Shown here: positions 30,535 through 47,915 of the stretch, one piece after another
Layout: the number at the start of each line of letters is the position of its first letter
Position numbering within the stretch: the stretch's first letter is position 1
Origin: Candidatus Neomarinimicrobiota bacterium
Lineage (GTDB): Bacteria > Fidelibacterota > Marinisomatia > Marinisomatales > S15-B10
DNA length: 64,000 bases
Reading direction: 5' to 3'
NCBI GenBank assembly: GCA_036476315.1
Contig: JAZGBI010000008.1
Span: 1 to 64,000, forward strand
Program-made: the position numbers and the translations under genes
Notes under the pieces: generated by a model
Told to the model about the DNA's origin: nothing
Database searches by the model: none
What the model saw: only the letters and a program-made list of their open reading frames with translations

Positions 30535-31725
30535 TCAATACCTCGCGCTCACTTGCATGTGTCCTCGAAGTTGTTCCAGCGAATCGCCCCCAAATTTTTC
30601 CAACAGGGCGTCAGCCAGGACAAAGCAGAGCATACTTTCGGCCACTACGGAGGCGGCGGGAACTGCACAGACGTCTGTCCGCTCTTTGTAGGCGAGCTTG
30701 GGCTCTTTGGTTTGAATGTCGACGGATCGCAGCGGCTTCATCAGGGTTGGGATGGGCTTCATGACCGCCCTGATCACGATGGGTTGAGCATTGGTCATAC
30801 CTCCCTCGATTCCGCCGGCATTGTTCGATGTTCGCTGAAACCGAGTACCATCATGGGTGATCTCGTCATGGACTTCACTCCCGAACCGGCCAGCTTGGGC
30901 AAACCCCAACCCGATTTCGACCCCTTTGAATGCGTTAACGGACATAATCGCTTCAGCAATACGGGCGTGGATCTTCTTGTCCCACTGTGAATGACTCCCG
31001 AGGCCATAAGGAAGTCCCGTGGCGATGATTTCGAAGGTTCCTCCCACTGAGTCTCCATTTCTCCTGGCATGGTCGATTGCTGAAATCATGCCTTCCTCGG
31101 CTTTCTTGTCCAAACACCGTACCGGGGATCCGTCGGCCAATTCACTCAACGCTTCCGGTGAAATACCCTCTGGGATGGGAGATGTGTCTTTGGTTGCATG
31201 GATCCGAGTTACGCGACTGCCGGTTGCATGGATCCGAGTTACGCGACTGCCGATTTCGATTCCCACCTCTTTTAGGAGTTTCCTGCATGTGGACGCCAGA
31301 GCAACTCGCATGGCCGTTTCTCTGGCAGAGGCCCGTTCCAGCACGTCGCGGATATCGTCGAAATCGAACTTGTGAAGCCCTGCGAGATCGGCATGACCCG
31401 GTCTGGGGAGGGTCACTCTGACAATCTCCCGTTCAACAGGTTCAGGGGACATTTTCCGTTTCCAGTTTGCCCAATCCTTGTTGGGCAGGATTAGACCGAT
31501 GGGAGATCCCAGGGTCTTGCCGTGACGAACCCCACAATATATCTCCGCCCGATCCTTTTCAATTTTCATTCGTTTTCCTCTGCCAGAGCCCCTCTGCCTC
31601 CGGGCCAATTGATAGGCAATGTAGTCTTCACTGATTTCCAACCCGGCGGGGATTCCTTCTATGATACCCAATAACCCTTTTCCGTGGGACTCCCCCGCTG
31701 TTAAGAAGTGAATTTTTTGCATCAT
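30535..31725 (-). CDS. aroC: Chorismate synthase with an in-frame 10-residue duplication
   Basis: This FMNH2-dependent enzyme performs the last shikimate step, converting EPSP to chorismate. It has TAGESHGKGLLGIIEGIPAG, RRQRGSGRGKRMKIE, RPGHADLAG, and DIRDVLERASARETAMRVA, with GGMTNAQPIVIRAVMKPIPT later. At 396 residues it is long for its class because of a perfect 30-base tandem duplication (31192-31251). This gives GSRVTRIHAT twice in the segment after the first 150 residues. The reading frame is preserved. ATGA overlap with aroE. Confidence 0.95.
   Translation of the reverse strand: MMQKIHFLTAGESHGKGLLGIIEGIPAGLEISEDYIAYQLARRQRGSGRGKRMKIEKDRAEIYCGVRHGKTLGSPIGLILPNKDWANWKRKMSPEPVEREIVRVTLPRPGHADLAGLHKFDFDDIRDVLERASARETAMRVALASTCRKLLKEVGIEIGSRVTRIHATGSRVTRIHATKDTSPIPEGISPEALSELADGSPVRCLDKKAEEGMISAIDHARRNGDSVGGTFEIIATGLPYGLGSHSQWDKKIHARIAEAIMSVNAFKGVEIGLGFAQAGRFGSEVHDEITHDGTRFQRTSNNAGGIEGGMTNAQPIVIRAVMKPIPTLMKPLRSVDIQTKEPKLAYKERTDVCAVPAASVVAESMLCFVLADALLEKFGGDSLEQLRGHMQVSARY
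31192..31251. repeat. Perfect 30-base tandem duplication inside aroC
   Basis: The unit beginning GGTTGCATGGATCC occupies 31192-31221 and is repeated without any mismatch at 31222-31251. The lack of mutations implies a recent event or strong exchange. It adds ten residues to chorismate synthase. Confidence 0.95.
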
Positions 31726-32586: not shown

Positions 32587-33858
32587 CTATGAAATGACTT
32601 TCCTTAACAGGTCACTAAAGTCCGGGCATGATACGCTCATGATTTCCGGATTGTCCATTTTCACCGGTTCTTGGGCTATGAGTCCTGCAATGGTAAAGGC
32701 CATGGCTACCCGGTGATCGTCGAACGTCGATATAGAGGCGCCCCGAAGGGGTGTCGGGCCACGGATGACAAATCCATCCTCACGTTCACTCACATGCGCT
32801 CCCATTCTTCGTAGATTGGTGCAGATGGCCTTGATGCGATCGGTTTCTTTCACCCTCAATTCTATGGCGTCACGAATCACGGTGGTTCCTTCGGCCTGGG
32901 TTGCCAAGACACCGAGAATCGGGAGTTCATCTATCATTCGAGGGATTTCTGTCCCCCCAAGGGAAATCCCTTTCAGGGGCTTATGGGTGATCTTGAGGTC
33001 TCCTATGGTTTCTCCGTATTCGTCGCGCTTGTTCAGTAATTGTATTCCCGCTCCCATTTCTTTCAGGGCATCGTAGAATCCCGTCCGGGTAGGGTTTAGT
33101 AAGACGCTTCTCAAGATTAGCTCAGAGTGGGGAATCACCGCAGCCGCCGAAGCGAGAAATGCTGCTGTGGAGGGATCCCCAGGGACGTTTATGTGAAAGG
33201 GTTTAAAGGGACGCTGAAGGAGGAAAACGGTGACGTGATTATCTGTTGTGGTGATATCCGCGCCGAGAATTTTCAACATGATTTCTGTATGATCCCGGGT
33301 TTTTGTTCTTTCGATCACGGTGGTCGATCCGGGCACGCCCAATCCTGCCAGGAGAACGCAAGATTTTACCTGGGCACTGGCAACGGGAGGGCGATATTTT
33401 ATTCCCATTGAAGGTGTCTTTCCTTTTAGTCGCAGTGGGAGATGACCGTTTCGGCCTTCAACCGTCGCCCCCATCATTTGCAAGGGGCGGATTATTCTGC
33501 CCATGGGCCGGCGGCTGAGCGACTCATCTCCCACCAGGGTAGCGGCAACCCCCTGTCCCACCAAAAGGCCCGTCAACAGTCTGGCTGTGGTTCCGGAATT
33601 GCCGCAATTCAGGGGATGATCTGGCCGCTTGAGTCCGCCCCCCAGTATGGTGATGCGGCTCAAAACCCTTTCGGATGGAACGCCGCACTCCTGCAAACAC
33701 AGGCGGGTGGATTCCACATCGATTGCGTTGGAACAGTTGTCGATGGTGCTCTCCCCATTTGTGAGGGTGCCAAGTATCAAGGCCCGGTGGGAAATGGATT
33801 TGTCTCCCGGAAATGTTAATTCACCCGATATCTTCATAGGTTGGGACTTTTTCTTCAT
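32587..33858 (-). CDS. aroA: 3-phosphoshikimate 1-carboxyvinyltransferase (EPSP synthase)
   Basis: This 423-residue enzyme performs step 6 of the pathway. It shows FPGDKSISHRALILG with the catalytic Lys, LNCGNSGTTARLLTGLL, GDESLSRRPM, ASAQVKSCVLLAGL, and DELPILGVLA and VKETDRI for PEP binding, then FDDHRVAMAF. The start is taken as ATG 33858, which overlaps the end of aroF by 38 bases. The frame is open to 33897, and ATG 33837 is a further option. The motif set is that of glyphosate-sensitive class I-like enzymes by general appearance, not tested. Confidence 0.94.
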   Translation of the reverse strand: MKKKSQPMKISGELTFPGDKSISHRALILGTLTNGESTIDNCSNAIDVESTRLCLQECGVPSERVLSRITILGGGLKRPDHPLNCGNSGTTARLLTGLLVGQGVAATLVGDESLSRRPMGRIIRPLQMMGATVEGRNGHLPLRLKGKTPSMGIKYRPPVASAQVKSCVLLAGLGVPGSTTVIERTKTRDHTEIMLKILGADITTTDNHVTVFLLQRPFKPFHINVPGDPSTAAFLASAAAVIPHSELILRSVLLNPTRTGFYDALKEMGAGIQLLNKRDEYGETIGDLKITHKPLKGISLGGTEIPRMIDELPILGVLATQAEGTTVIRDAIELRVKETDRIKAICTNLRRMGAHVSEREDGFVIRGPTPLRGASISTFDDHRVAMAFTIAGLIAQEPVKMDNPEIMSVSCPDFSDLLRKVIS

Positions 33859-34879
33859 GCTCTTTACCAATCTTCTTTCCCAGCGCCTTACAGACACCTT
33901 TTGCTAATCCCATGAGTTCAGAAAACTGTTCGGGCGGCAAAGCTTGAGGACCGTCGCAGAGGGCTTCTTCCGGGCGGTCGTGCACGTCCACGATGAGACC
34001 GTCGGCGCCGGCTCCGATTCCAGAAAGGGCATGAGGGATCACACTATATCGATGACCGCTGGAATGACTCGGATCCACAATGATGGGGAGGTGGCTCACC
34101 TCCTTCAAGGCCGGTATGATGCTGATGTCAAGTGTATTCCGGGCGTGGCTGGCAAACGTTCGAACCCCCCGTTCACAAATCGCAACGTGGGGTGTGCCGC
34201 TGGACATTAGGTATTCTGCAGACATCAAGGTCTCGTCAAGTGTGGCACTCATTCCTCGTTTCATGAGGACAGGTTTTCCCACCTTTCCCACGTCCTTCAG
34301 AAGGGTGAAATTCTGCATATTCCGGGCACCGATTTGAAGCATGTCAGCATACTGGTCCACCAAGGTTGCTGTCCCCGGATCAACGACTTCCGTAACAATC
34401 GGTAAACCTGTTTGATCTCGTGCTTCCGCAAGGATTTCCAGACCAGGCTCACCGAGCCCCTGAAAGGAATAAGGGGAGGTCCTGGGCTTGTAAGCCCCAC
34501 CACGGAGCATCTGGGCTCCCTGTTTCGCCACGTGGTGAGCGATGCGCAGCGTTTGATCGCGGCTCTCTACGGCGCACGGTCCTGCTATCATGACCACGTT
34601 GCCATCTCCGAACTTCACCCCGCAGACGTCAATGACGGAATTCTCCGGGTGCATGTCACGACTGGCAAGCTTGTAAGGCTTGGTGACAGGGATAACCTGC
34701 AAAACACCCGGCAATCCTTCGAGATATATTCGGTCTTCGGTATTCTTGTTGCCCGTAACTCCGATGGCCAGCCGGGTCCGTCCAGGGATCTCGTGGGGAC
34801 TATATCCCAGTTCTTTGATCCGTTCCTTGACTCGTTCAATTTGTTCCTTGGTGGCGGTTACGTTCATAACAACAAGCAT
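33821..34879 (-). CDS. aroF: 3-deoxy-D-arabino-heptulosonate 7-phosphate (DAHP) synthase with N-terminal regulatory-like domain
   Basis: This 352-residue enzyme performs the first committed step of aromatic biosynthesis (PEP + erythrose 4-phosphate). Residues 1-70 form a ferredoxin-like/ACT-like extension (MNVTATKEQIERVKERIKEL), as in AroA-beta enzymes where it mediates aromatic feedback. The TIM-barrel follows, with MIAGPCAVES, LRGGAYKPRTSPYSFQGLG, GARNMQNFTLLK, VLMKRG, and IIVDPSHSSGHR with metal and PEP ligands. One base separates it from tyrA. Confidence 0.95.
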   Translation of the reverse strand: MLVVMNVTATKEQIERVKERIKELGYSPHEIPGRTRLAIGVTGNKNTEDRIYLEGLPGVLQVIPVTKPYKLASRDMHPENSVIDVCGVKFGDGNVVMIAGPCAVESRDQTLRIAHHVAKQGAQMLRGGAYKPRTSPYSFQGLGEPGLEILAEARDQTGLPIVTEVVDPGTATLVDQYADMLQIGARNMQNFTLLKDVGKVGKPVLMKRGMSATLDETLMSAEYLMSSGTPHVAICERGVRTFASHARNTLDISIIPALKEVSHLPIIVDPSHSSGHRYSVIPHALSGIGAGADGLIVDVHDRPEEALCDGPQALPPEQFSELMGLAKGVCKALGKKIGKEHEEKVPTYEDIG

Positions 34880-34880
34880 A

Positions 34881-35606
34881 CTAATCTCTCCTTATGATCT
34901 TACCCCGAATGGTCTCAATGGCTGATTCCAGCGTCTCGATGATCGGTAGGGTGTATGGATTGAAGTTCTGAAGGTCTGTGAACAGTTCCCAGCTGTCGTG
35001 GCAGGTCTGATCGATGACATGCAGAAGGTCTCTGAAGCCCAGCGTATCGATTTCGGTCGGTTCCACACCGGCTTCCTTCAGGACACGGCCGACAAAGTGC
35101 GTAACCCCTTGCGTTCTGGCTGCCAACCGATCGTGCTCCTCAGGGGTCATCTCTACGACCTTGATAGCCTTGGATTCAAAGTATTCTTTCCAGAAAGGAA
35201 ACATGTCATAGTTGTCCCTTGTTGGATGCATCATCATGGTCAATCCTTTGGGCCTGGTAATGGAATCGGGCCCGAAAAGAGGATGCGTGGTAATAATCCC
35301 GATATGATCCGGAAGTGCCTCTTTCATCACGGTTGCGGGATACACCTTCACCGAACAAACATCCAGGATGGTTGTCCTTCCTGACAACCTGGGTGAGATG
35401 TCCAGGATTACCTCTTTAAACGCCCGGATGGGGACAGCGACAAAAATGGATTTCTCCTTCAATACTGTGTCGATGCCTGTGATTTCAACACCGAATTGCT
35501 CGTCTTGGACTTTCTCATCATAAGCCTTTACCTTGAAGTCGTCTGATAGGATCTTTCCCAGAACTCCTCCAAACCTTCCAAACCCGATAATACCTATACT
35601 AGTCAT
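34881..35606 (-). CDS. tyrA: Prephenate/arogenate dehydrogenase
   Basis: This 241-residue NAD(P)-dependent enzyme oxidatively decarboxylates prephenate (or arogenate) on the way to tyrosine. It has the Rossmann motif GIIGFGRFGGVLGKIL and the active-site THPLFGPDS, and an all-helical C-terminal dimerisation region. No ACT domain is present. The start is ATG 35606 overlapping the pheA stop (ATGACTAG); the open frame extends a further 11 residues upstream. The sequence looks like arogenate-type enzymes, but substrate preference is not decidable here. Confidence 0.9.
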   Translation of the reverse strand: MTSIGIIGFGRFGGVLGKILSDDFKVKAYDEKVQDEQFGVEITGIDTVLKEKSIFVAVPIRAFKEVILDISPRLSGRTTILDVCSVKVYPATVMKEALPDHIGIITTHPLFGPDSITRPKGLTMMMHPTRDNYDMFPFWKEYFESKAIKVVEMTPEEHDRLAARTQGVTHFVGRVLKEAGVEPTEIDTLGFRDLLHVIDQTCHDSWELFTDLQNFNPYTLPIIETLESAIETIRGKIIRRD

Positions 35607-36180
35607 TTTGGTCTTGCTTGAAATTCTTAACTCCGACAAAGAGGGTTAGATTATTCTTCAGGTCATGAATATTCTCCTGAAGAAGGACCAAACCGTAAAG
35701 GTCTGCGCATGCTTTGGGAGCGACAACGGCCGCCGTCTCAGGGAGTTTTCCTTCCTTTAACCGTCTTGCTGCTTCAGCAGTATCGTCTTCTTCAATGAGA
35801 GGACGTGTCCAGAAATGCTCCGCAACATAATCTCTGCACTGGAGCAGAGCCTGTTGATGAGAGTGAATCTCTGTAATGTCACCGATGAATACACCCCTCT
35901 TGCCCAGAAGATTTTGGCTGATAGGAATGTAAAACATCTCAACTATCTCGCATCGATGGTGGGCCAATGCCTCCACACTTTCTATGACAACTCCGCCCTG
36001 GGCATTTTCCATGGCGAAGATTCCGAAATCTACATTCTCATTTTCCACGGCACCCAGCACGGCTTCTGATGAAACAAGGTACTTCATCCTCACGTCCTCA
36101 ATACCGTGGTTGTTGGCAAAAATGGTTGCAGCTCCGTCGCAAAAACTACCTTTTCCACCTTGAATTCCAATGGTCGTCAT
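35599..36180 (-). CDS. pheA: Prephenate dehydratase catalytic domain, without ACT domain
   Basis: This 193-residue enzyme converts prephenate to phenylpyruvate. It starts IGIQGGKGSFCDGAA and has FAMENAQGGVVIESVEAL and IHSHQQALLQCRDYV, followed by AAVVAPKACADLYGL. It ends shortly after NNLTLFVGV, where typical enzymes have the TRF motif; the catalytic Thr is kept but the Arg is Leu. The C-terminal ACT domain that gives phenylalanine feedback in most homologues is absent. It overlaps trpA by 4 bases and tyrA by 8. Confidence 0.87.
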   Translation of the reverse strand: MTTIGIQGGKGSFCDGAATIFANNHGIEDVRMKYLVSSEAVLGAVENENVDFGIFAMENAQGGVVIESVEALAHHRCEIVEMFYIPISQNLLGKRGVFIGDITEIHSHQQALLQCRDYVAEHFWTRPLIEEDDTAEAARRLKEGKLPETAAVVAPKACADLYGLVLLQENIHDLKNNLTLFVGVKNFKQDQND

Positions 36181-42676: not shown

Positions 42677-42701
42677 AAAAAACCCCGCGTTTGCTGCGGG
42701 G
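42677..42701 (-). terminator. Intrinsic terminator between leader peptide and trpE (attenuator)
   Basis: Read on the minus strand it is CCCCGC, loop AGCAAAC, GCGGGG, then six T. It lies about 30 bases after the leader-peptide stop and 28 bases before the trpE start. Its position between promoter and first structural gene, right after an aromatic-rich leader frame, identifies it as an attenuator rather than an end-of-operon terminator. A stretch at the leader end (GGTTGGAG) could pair with TTTTCGACC at the base of the hairpin as an antiterminator; this pairing uses G-U pairs and is only a proposal. Confidence 0.85.
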
Positions 42702-42731
42702 TCGAAAACGGTCCATTCGTCTGCTATTTCC

Positions 42732-42806
42732 CTACACGGGCCGCTCCAACCCTCCTGAGGAGAACCACCAATAGTAATAACTAAACTGCTGAACTGTCTG
42801 ATTCAT
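42732..42806 (-). CDS. Aromatic leader peptide of the trp-phe-tyr-aro operon
   Basis: A 24-codon frame from ATG 42806 to TAG 42732 contains six aromatic codons in a seven-residue core: FSYYYWWF starting at codon 8 (TTT AGT TAT TAC TAT TGG TGG TTC). Phe, Tyr and Trp codons are packed together just ahead of an intrinsic terminator and trpE. A ribosome stalled for want of any of the three charged tRNAs would halt in the same place. The downstream genes make exactly these three amino acids. This is too short to be found by size alone. It has no Shine-Dalgarno sequence, and the predicted transcription start lies only about two bases before the ATG. Confidence 0.8.
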   Translation of the reverse strand: MNQTVQQFSYYYWWFSSGGLERPV

Positions 42807-42814
42807 TGTTTGAA

Positions 42815-42843
42815 AATATATTCTACTTCAAGTCCCGTTGCAA
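42815..42843 (-). promoter_or_regulatory. Promoter of the aromatic operon
   Basis: On the minus strand: TTGCAA (42843-42838), a 17-base spacer, TATATT (42820-42815). The ATG of the leader peptide follows eight bases after the -10 box. It lies in the 97-base interval between the chorismate mutase stop and the leader, so the operon proper can be transcribed without the mutase gene. Confidence 0.65.
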
Positions 42844-42903: not shown

Positions 42904-43164
42904 TCACTCTTGGATCTTTCTTGTGGCGTGGAAAATGGACCTGAAGATTCGGGCAATTTGATCTCTCGATAGGATTCCCGCAGCTTGTTTTTCGAGACGA
43001 TCAATGATTTCCTTTTCCCGCTCTGGGTCTCCCGCCGATAAATTGAGTTCTTTCTTCAATTGGCCCAACTGCTCCACCAAGCCTATTCGCTCAGCCAACA
43101 ATCGGATCATCTCCTCATCGATCTCGTCAATCTGTTTTCGAAGCTGAGCTATTCTTTTGTCCAT
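42904..43164 (-). CDS. Chorismate mutase (AroQ class), monofunctional
   Basis: This 86-residue all-helical enzyme rearranges chorismate to prephenate. It has the family's pattern IDEIDEEMIRLLAERIGLVE, then LGQLKKE with the active-site Lys, DPEREKEI and a C-terminal QIARIFRSIFHATRKIQE. It supplies prephenate for pheA and tyrA of the following operon. It lies just outside the leader/attenuator, so it may escape attenuation or be transcribed from its own promoter upstream. Confidence 0.9.
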   Translation of the reverse strand: MDKRIAQLRKQIDEIDEEMIRLLAERIGLVEQLGQLKKELNLSAGDPEREKEIIDRLEKQAAGILSRDQIARIFRSIFHATRKIQE

Positions 43165-43201
43165 GCTGTTCGCGGATTTCTGTGTGACAACCTTAGCATT
43201 T

Positions 43202-43534
43202 CTCGGCCACTTCTCTGTATGCTTCTCTGAAAGGGCACACCTCGATTAACCAATTTGTACACTTCCTCGGTCAAGGCCTTCTCGCAATTCGTTTTGCTTA
43301 CCTCTGGCACCCAAACGACCCATTCATTATTTTGAAGAGGATCATTTTCCCCAGCCAAAACTTCACAGGAATACCGAGAGGGGAATGGCCGTCAGTGTCG
43401 GAAGACTTCGCCCGTGTCCCATTTTGGATCATAAGTTTACGGCCCTATCGCACAATACCATTCGAGGAGCAGCCGGCGGGGTGATTCTAAGCGCGGAGAT
43501 TATGGTGAAAAAGGGGCTGATCTCCTATGAATAG
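43202..43534 (+). pseudogene. C-terminal remnant of aspartate-semialdehyde dehydrogenase
   Basis: In one plus frame, from about 43262 to the stop at 43534, the residues LAPKRPIHYFEEDHFPQPKL, GMAVSVGRLRPCPILDHKF and TALSHNTIRGAAGGVILSAE match the C-terminal end of an Asd of the archaeal/fungal-like type. Further upstream in the same frame, GHFSVCFSE still fits, but a TAA interrupts it at 43247. The catalytic N-terminal half is gone. The remnant lies directly next to the chorismate mutase gene on the opposite strand and marks the left border of the accessory region. Confidence 0.75.
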
Positions 43535-47712: not shown

Positions 47713-47915
47713 TGACATTTCAAGAAATCTCCGCCAAGAATAACGGAAAGTTTCCGATTGATAATATGATATCAGAATGGTAGTGTCAATCAAAAGGGGT
47801 GTTATTCCGCCGAGGGTGGGATGGCTGAGATTAGACTCTTAGAACCTGAACTGGGTAATGCCAGCGGAGGAAATGAGAAAACAGACTATCAGAATCCTCT
47901 TCGGTTTGAAGGGGA
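47713..47915 (+). repeat. Direct repeat copy 2 (promoter, TPP riboswitch, terminator)
   Basis: It matches 45569-45755. It contains TTGATA-17-TAGTGT (47758-47786) as a promoter, then the riboswitch and its terminator. The two copies flank the mtnA remnant, mtnP and apt. The 250 bases between apt and this repeat show no gene. Confidence 0.9.
47793..47876 (+). promoter_or_regulatory. TPP riboswitch (THI element), copy 2, apparently intact
   Basis: All conserved blocks are present in order: AGGGGTG, GGCTGAGA (pyrimidine sensor), ACCTGAACTGGGTAATGCCA with GCGGAGGAAATGAG (pyrophosphate sensor and closing stem). It begins about ten bases after a promoter-like -10 box. The next gene downstream is an SGNH hydrolase at 48104, not a thiamine gene, so the switch looks orphaned. 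Confidence 0.88.

Follow-up and report, generated by a model that had tools for sequence, protein, structure and literature searches.

The trp-phe-tyr-aro supraoperon described here is in all likelihood governed by a ribosome-mediated transcription attenuator, for which shortage of any one of the three aromatic amino acids would suffice. The mechanism appears to be the ordinary one of classical ribosome-mediated attenuation, and it is the three-amino-acid form that seems unusual; we regard this assignment as well supported. Translation of the leader, ribosome stalling and the response to each amino acid we infer from sequence. According to the proposed mechanism, transcription would start at or next to the AUG of a short leader frame. 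With an ample supply of all three aromatic aminoacyl-tRNAs, the ribosome would reach the stop codon and cover the segment GGGUUGG at the end of the frame; the CCCC arm would then pair with its own 3' arm, and termination would occur ahead of trpE. Scarcity of charged Phe-, Tyr- or Trp-tRNA would instead stall the ribosome inside an eight-codon cluster; GGGUUGG would then be available to the 5' arm of the terminator as a pairing partner, and RNA polymerase would read through. Such OR logic would be a consequence of the arrangement, because the codons for all three amino acids are grouped a short way ahead of a single switch point.

The window, that is, the whole stretch of 64,000 nucleotides that was analysed, comes from a genome of 2.6 Mb that is 96% complete. 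As had been predicted from its letters alone, a 24-codon frame with an FSYYYWWF core is found on the minus strand, with a promoter-like site 5' to it and an intrinsic terminator 3' to it, followed by trpE. The leader peptide frame (MNQTVQQFSYYYWWFSSGGLERPV, 42806-42732, minus strand, 24 codons plus TAG, ATG start) has homologous leaders in relatives. Its regulatory cluster F-S-Y-Y-Y-W-W-F (42785-42762, minus), in which the aromatic class is conserved by position in 24 leaders, comprises two Phe, three Tyr and two Trp codons within eight. A cluster of this kind, with seven aromatic codons in eight and all three amino acids represented, occurs at one place only in the six frames of the window, and none was found in 40 simulated sequences with the dinucleotide frequencies of the window. 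A short, translated-looking frame with a run of regulatory codons is present before a biosynthetic operon, as in attenuators of this class.

The first gene past the attenuator is trpE (42649-41174, minus; Pfam Chorismate_bind and Anth_synt_I_N), and the rest of the supraoperon, trpG, trpD, trpC, trpF, trpB, trpA, pheA, tyrA, aroF, aroA, aroE, aroC and aroK, extends over 41190-29814 on the same strand. That the downstream transcript serves all three aromatic amino acids was borne out by Pfam matches of TrpE, PheA (PDT; gene at 35599-36180, minus), TyrA (PDH_N; 34881-35639, minus), DAHP synthase (aroF; 33821-34879, minus) and AroC (30535-31725, minus). The further claim of the original prediction, that one leader controls the whole aromatic pathway, would hold for nearly all of it, but not quite for the whole, because aroQ, encoding a type II chorismate mutase of 86 aa (43164-42904, minus; Pfam CM_2, PF01817, E=1.7e-23), lies upstream of the leader and of the leader's own promoter; aroQ is located directly upstream of the leader in many relatives too. 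Upstream of aroQ, at 43149-43534, probable gene remnants were recognized by eye, one resembling the C-terminus of Asd (plus strand) and the other that of argininosuccinate lyase (minus strand). In the aroC gene of the window ten codons are tandemly duplicated in frame (GSRVTRIHATGSRVTRIHAT), which represents either a recent micro-duplication or an assembly artefact. A TPP riboswitch is present at 47785-47890 on the plus strand (57.9 bits, above the gathering score).

A consensus scan identified a sigma70-type promoter-like pair, TTGCAA-17-TATATT, at 42843-42815 (minus). The -10 box ends 8 nt ahead of the leader ATG, and therefore the frame is probably translated from a leaderless transcript. 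In most multi-aromatic leaders of the relatives, the distance from the end of a -10-like box to the first in-frame start codon is 7-10 nt, so that, as far as consensus scans indicate, transcription would start at about the AUG; the corresponding gap in the Trp-only leaders of families f23 and f29 is mostly 21-29 nt. A leaderless attenuator frame is known in Sinorhizobium meliloti trpL (PMC7298713). Taken alone, the promoter and terminator scans of the window are both near chance expectation; the calls are credible because the elements are conserved in relatives.

The best named matches to the TrpE of the window are MAGs of Candidatus Neomarinimicrobiota. Among 245 genomes of this phylum, 63 yielded TrpE, and 60 regions together with the window made up the 61 loci examined. 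A leader frame and a terminator precede trpE in 54 of them (examples from relatives are MSTKTDRFNYYWYYQTRGLETRP, MNTKIYYSWYWFFSREGVL, MRNGNEKFNCYYWWFFYGGLRRQP, MIFNLKKYFFYFWYYNNMGNC and MNSFVPTFFYYWWFRSTG). The seven loci without a leader are two at contig edges (L161, L171), two whose operon has another gene order, with trpE in its interior (L196, L197), and three from genus g39 (L170, L172, L174). In G130, G132 and G134, genomes of that genus with upstream sequence available, no leader or terminator was detected before trpE, and another g39 genome, G133, has kept the leader. The three g39 loci belong to genomes that have the supraoperon yet have neither leader nor terminator; in two of them, L170 and L172, aroQ and trpE are separated by a gene similar to those for cation-efflux transporters.

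The intrinsic terminator of the window (GACCCCGCAGCAAACGCGGGGTT and a T-run, 42703-42677, minus; -14.2 kcal/mol) has an 8-bp GC-rich stem. In all 51 leaders listed, a terminator lies 26-46 nt past the leader stop, as expected of the attenuator class. The original prediction called for folding of this region in search of a structure that would exclude the terminator, and such an antiterminator is present and covaries between leaders. Its 5' strand (GGAGGGTTGGAGCGGCCCGTG, 42755-42735, minus) overlaps the end of the leader frame, and its 3' strand (AATGGACCGTTTTCGACCCCG, 42717-42697, minus), supported by predicted pairing and covariation, is shared with the 5' arm of the terminator. The predicted RNA duplex of the window amounts to -22.5 kcal/mol and is in the top ranks when compared with partners taken from other genera. 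In most leaders, a GGG-led segment at the end of the frame pairs with the 5' arm of the terminator, and in most of those having GGG it begins 6-12 nt past the last aromatic codon. Duplexes within leaders are stronger than those that combine strands of different genera, with mean ranks of 0.14 and 0.16 (p about 1e-6 and 1e-5), and pairing outside the GGG/CCC core reaches 0.68, compared with 0.57+/-0.03 for permuted partners, a value not attained in 2000 permutations. The single-sequence folding z-score, -1.13, was not significant.

We simulated stalling by setting the A site on each codon, masking 13 nt downstream and folding the transcript only as far as the terminator loop; the pooled counts from these simulations and from the leader table include L162, a locus discussed below. 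Placing a Phe, Tyr or Trp codon in the A site gave sequestration values for the terminator arm of 0.62, 0.63 and 0.63, respectively, and in 34 of 51 leaders the arm was released no more than two codons past the last aromatic codon. The stall contrast averaged 0.37, as opposed to 0.07 for shuffled linkers, and E. coli trpL (sequence confirmed), used as a calibrator, gave the same profile. The drop simulated for the window's own leader was modest, from 0.70 to 0.36, which is weaker than in most relatives, and the simulation does not resolve the switch in leaders of family f25. Thus, in simulation, a stall at the cluster would expose the antiterminator, as had been proposed, and in most leaders a ribosome at the stop codon would not. 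Together with duplex covariation, these results point to a mutually exclusive antiterminator that is exposed on stalling at the cluster. When the full leader, including the 3' arm of the terminator, was folded at equilibrium, the terminator won in most leaders; hence, kinetics must decide the switch, as they do in classical attenuators. Equilibrium folding says little about a kinetic switch, and was abandoned as a test of it in favour of the loop-limited fold.

The codons present in the leaders roughly follow the genes of the operons they precede. Phe, Tyr and Trp codons were all found in each of 35 leaders, from 23 genera, of trp+pheA+tyrA(+aro) operons, a class that takes in truncated contigs assigned by genus and from which L162 (genome G107) was moved to the trp-only class; such supraoperon leaders contain 4-8 aromatic codons of all three kinds. 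In family f25, whose operon consists of trp, tyrA, aroQ, DAHP synthase and aro genes, with pheA located elsewhere in the two genomes checked, the leader core is YWWYY, and Phe is absent from three of five leaders. Genus g30 has a WWYNY leader devoid of Phe, and no pheA or tyrA match was obtained in two of its genomes (86-87% completeness). For loci L158 and L161, neither genome (G093 and G094, 86-87% complete) gave a PheA or TyrA domain match, making it possible that these bacteria are Phe/Tyr auxotrophs; the leader of G093 has no Phe codons. The distant families f23 and f29 possess trp-only operons with WW or WWW leaders. Exceptions were also encountered. G107 and G157 have trp-only operons preceded by YLIWFW and FWW leaders, respectively, and in f24 an operon of trp and common-pathway genes has a leader with Phe, Tyr and Trp codons; in all three, Phe codons are retained though the operon is without pheA. 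No convincing Phe leader was detected before pheA genes located outside the operon. G107, G157 and f24 aside, the leaders broadly carry codons for the amino acids that their operons make. Since the number of independent changes is small, this correspondence, read from sequence, should be regarded as a trend with exceptions and no statistical proof.

A similar leader logic was encountered outside the phylum. When 78 TrpE loci, the majority belonging to other phyla, were scanned, this revealed mainly WWW or WWWW leaders, and in one Geobacteraceae MAG a leader (MNSNRFYITFSFYFWLGFYFSPSARVKV, L109 8829-8742, minus) with a terminator ahead of DAHP synthase. Among Geobacterales, a Phe/Tyr/Trp leader (..FYFWYGFYFRPSAR..) followed by a terminator was present upstream of DAHP synthase in 30 of 30 loci (L232, L234-L262). 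Their start codons are about 8 nt past the likely -10 box, the terminator arm has a pairing partner in the antiterminator GTCTGCCCGGG, and among the 14 leaders folded, the arm was released at the last aromatic codon wherever it could be located automatically. The logic would be the same as in Neomarinimicrobiota, because DAHP synthase feeds the synthesis of all three amino acids; the context and the leader sequences differ, which suggests independent origins. In the same scan, WWW or WWWW leaders with terminators were seen upstream of trpE in Smithella, Syntrophaceae and deltaproteobacterial MAGs (L083, L094, L102, L119, L137), and in an Acidobacteria MAG (L080 915-999) a possible Tyr/Trp leader, MVGGFQGNYWYWRGVLGADRVRSLPVP, precedes a terminator and trpE.

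One could argue that the element operates in practice as a trp attenuator, in which the Trp codons, read by the rarest charged tRNA, alone matter, and those for Phe and Tyr serve as hydrophobic filler or weak modulators. Trp is indeed present in every leader and WW in many. Moreover, the Phe-Tyr-Phe leader aroR, upstream of Corynebacterium glutamicum aroF, is reported to respond to Phe and not to Tyr (Neshat et al. 2014, as reviewed in PMC11802643), a caution that leaders can contain codons to which they do not respond. However, leaders of the distant trp-only operons in the phylum consist of WW or WWW and little else, in contrast to the supraoperon leaders; Phe, Tyr and Trp codons share the same geometry relative to the switch; and the DAHP synthase leaders of Geobacterales contain many Phe and Tyr codons with one or two for Trp. 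We therefore consider sensing of Trp alone improbable.

A second alternative, which we find very unlikely, is that the nascent chain rich in Phe, Tyr and Trp arrests the ribosome, in a TnaC-like manner, rather than empty A sites. A bulky aromatic chain is encoded near the switch point, as this would require. Codon alignment of 24 leaders from 24 genera, anchored on the last aromatic codon, bears on the question. The aromatic fraction is 0.92-1.00 at positions -4 to 0, 0.33-0.71 at -7 to -5, and 0.00-0.08 at +1 to +4; upstream of trpE in relatives, the aromatic cluster thus stays and the flanking codons drift, as anticipated for a regulatory cluster. The order of Phe, Tyr and Trp varies freely between genera (FSYYYWWF, YYSWYWFF, YFFYFWYY, TFFYYWWF) and the aromatic class remains constant, which codon sensing predicts, whereas a conserved peptide would not behave in this way. 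Such scrambling fits codon sensing and not sequence-specific arrest, and the existence of WW-only versions at trp-only operons also speaks against an arrest peptide. The reading that the hairpin merely terminates the transcript of aroQ and that the small frame is spurious is strongly disfavoured and hardly credible: aroQ does end shortly upstream in many relatives, but frame, cluster, GGG spacing and promoter are kept in leaders otherwise different, covariation links the terminator arm to the end of the leader, and leaders exist without aroQ upstream (f15, f23, f24, f25, f29).

On balance, we favour attenuation by codon sensing, and think it fairly probable that the leader is a three-input OR gate in RNA, which would sense Phe, Tyr and Trp independently and switch the whole aromatic pathway, with its codon alphabet edited by evolution as the operon gains or loses genes, and which arose independently in Neomarinimicrobiota (trp-phe-tyr-aro supraoperon) and in Geobacterales (DAHP synthase). 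In this uncultivated marine phylum the leader precedes almost the entire pathway. Other regulators were sought and gave no match: the T-box covariance model had no match in the whole genome, TRAP (PF02081) is absent from the assembly, and TrpR has no match in the genome. The roughly matched changes of leader codons and operon genes would constitute a natural record of a regulator's specificity being rewritten, and the Geobacterales leaders offer a cultivable setting for the same question.

A search of the window against Rfam, Trp_leader and Phe_leader included, gave no match at gathering score, and L009 alone has a sub-threshold Phe_leader match (39.6 bits versus 55). In the open-access literature, to which our search was confined, we found no report of a combined Phe-Tyr-Trp leader; aromatic attenuators described there concern one amino acid each, except for aroR with Phe/Tyr, and by that measure the Phe-Tyr-Trp form is new. 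A 2010 survey, which added Firmicutes, gives Proteobacteria and Actinobacteria as the only groups in which leader-peptide attenuators had been known until then (PMC2965389).

The element resembles E. coli trpL and pheL in having a short frame with regulatory codons, a choice between antiterminator and terminator, and a terminator before the first gene; these leaders deal with one amino acid each, whereas here three are combined in one cluster and the start is probably leaderless. The trp attenuator of S. meliloti, trpL, contains, as far as is known, Trp codons only. Its likeness to the present element lies in the leaderless frame (PMC7298713). By pathway, the closest system is C. glutamicum aroR, a leader that likewise precedes a DAHP synthase gene and mixes aromatic codons of different kinds; as described in the review, it differs in having no Trp codons and in preceding an aroF operon rather than a trp-phe-tyr supraoperon (PMC11802643). 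By logic, the closest systems are enterobacterial leaders in which one leader carries codons for several end products of its operon, giving OR-type control. These are thrL (Thr, Ile), ilvL (Ile, Val, Leu) and ivbL (Val, Leu). They belong to the branched-chain and threonine pathways of Gammaproteobacteria, whereas the leader described here would combine all three aromatic amino acids in an uncultivated phylum, and, in further contrast, the composition of its cluster varies with the content of the operon.
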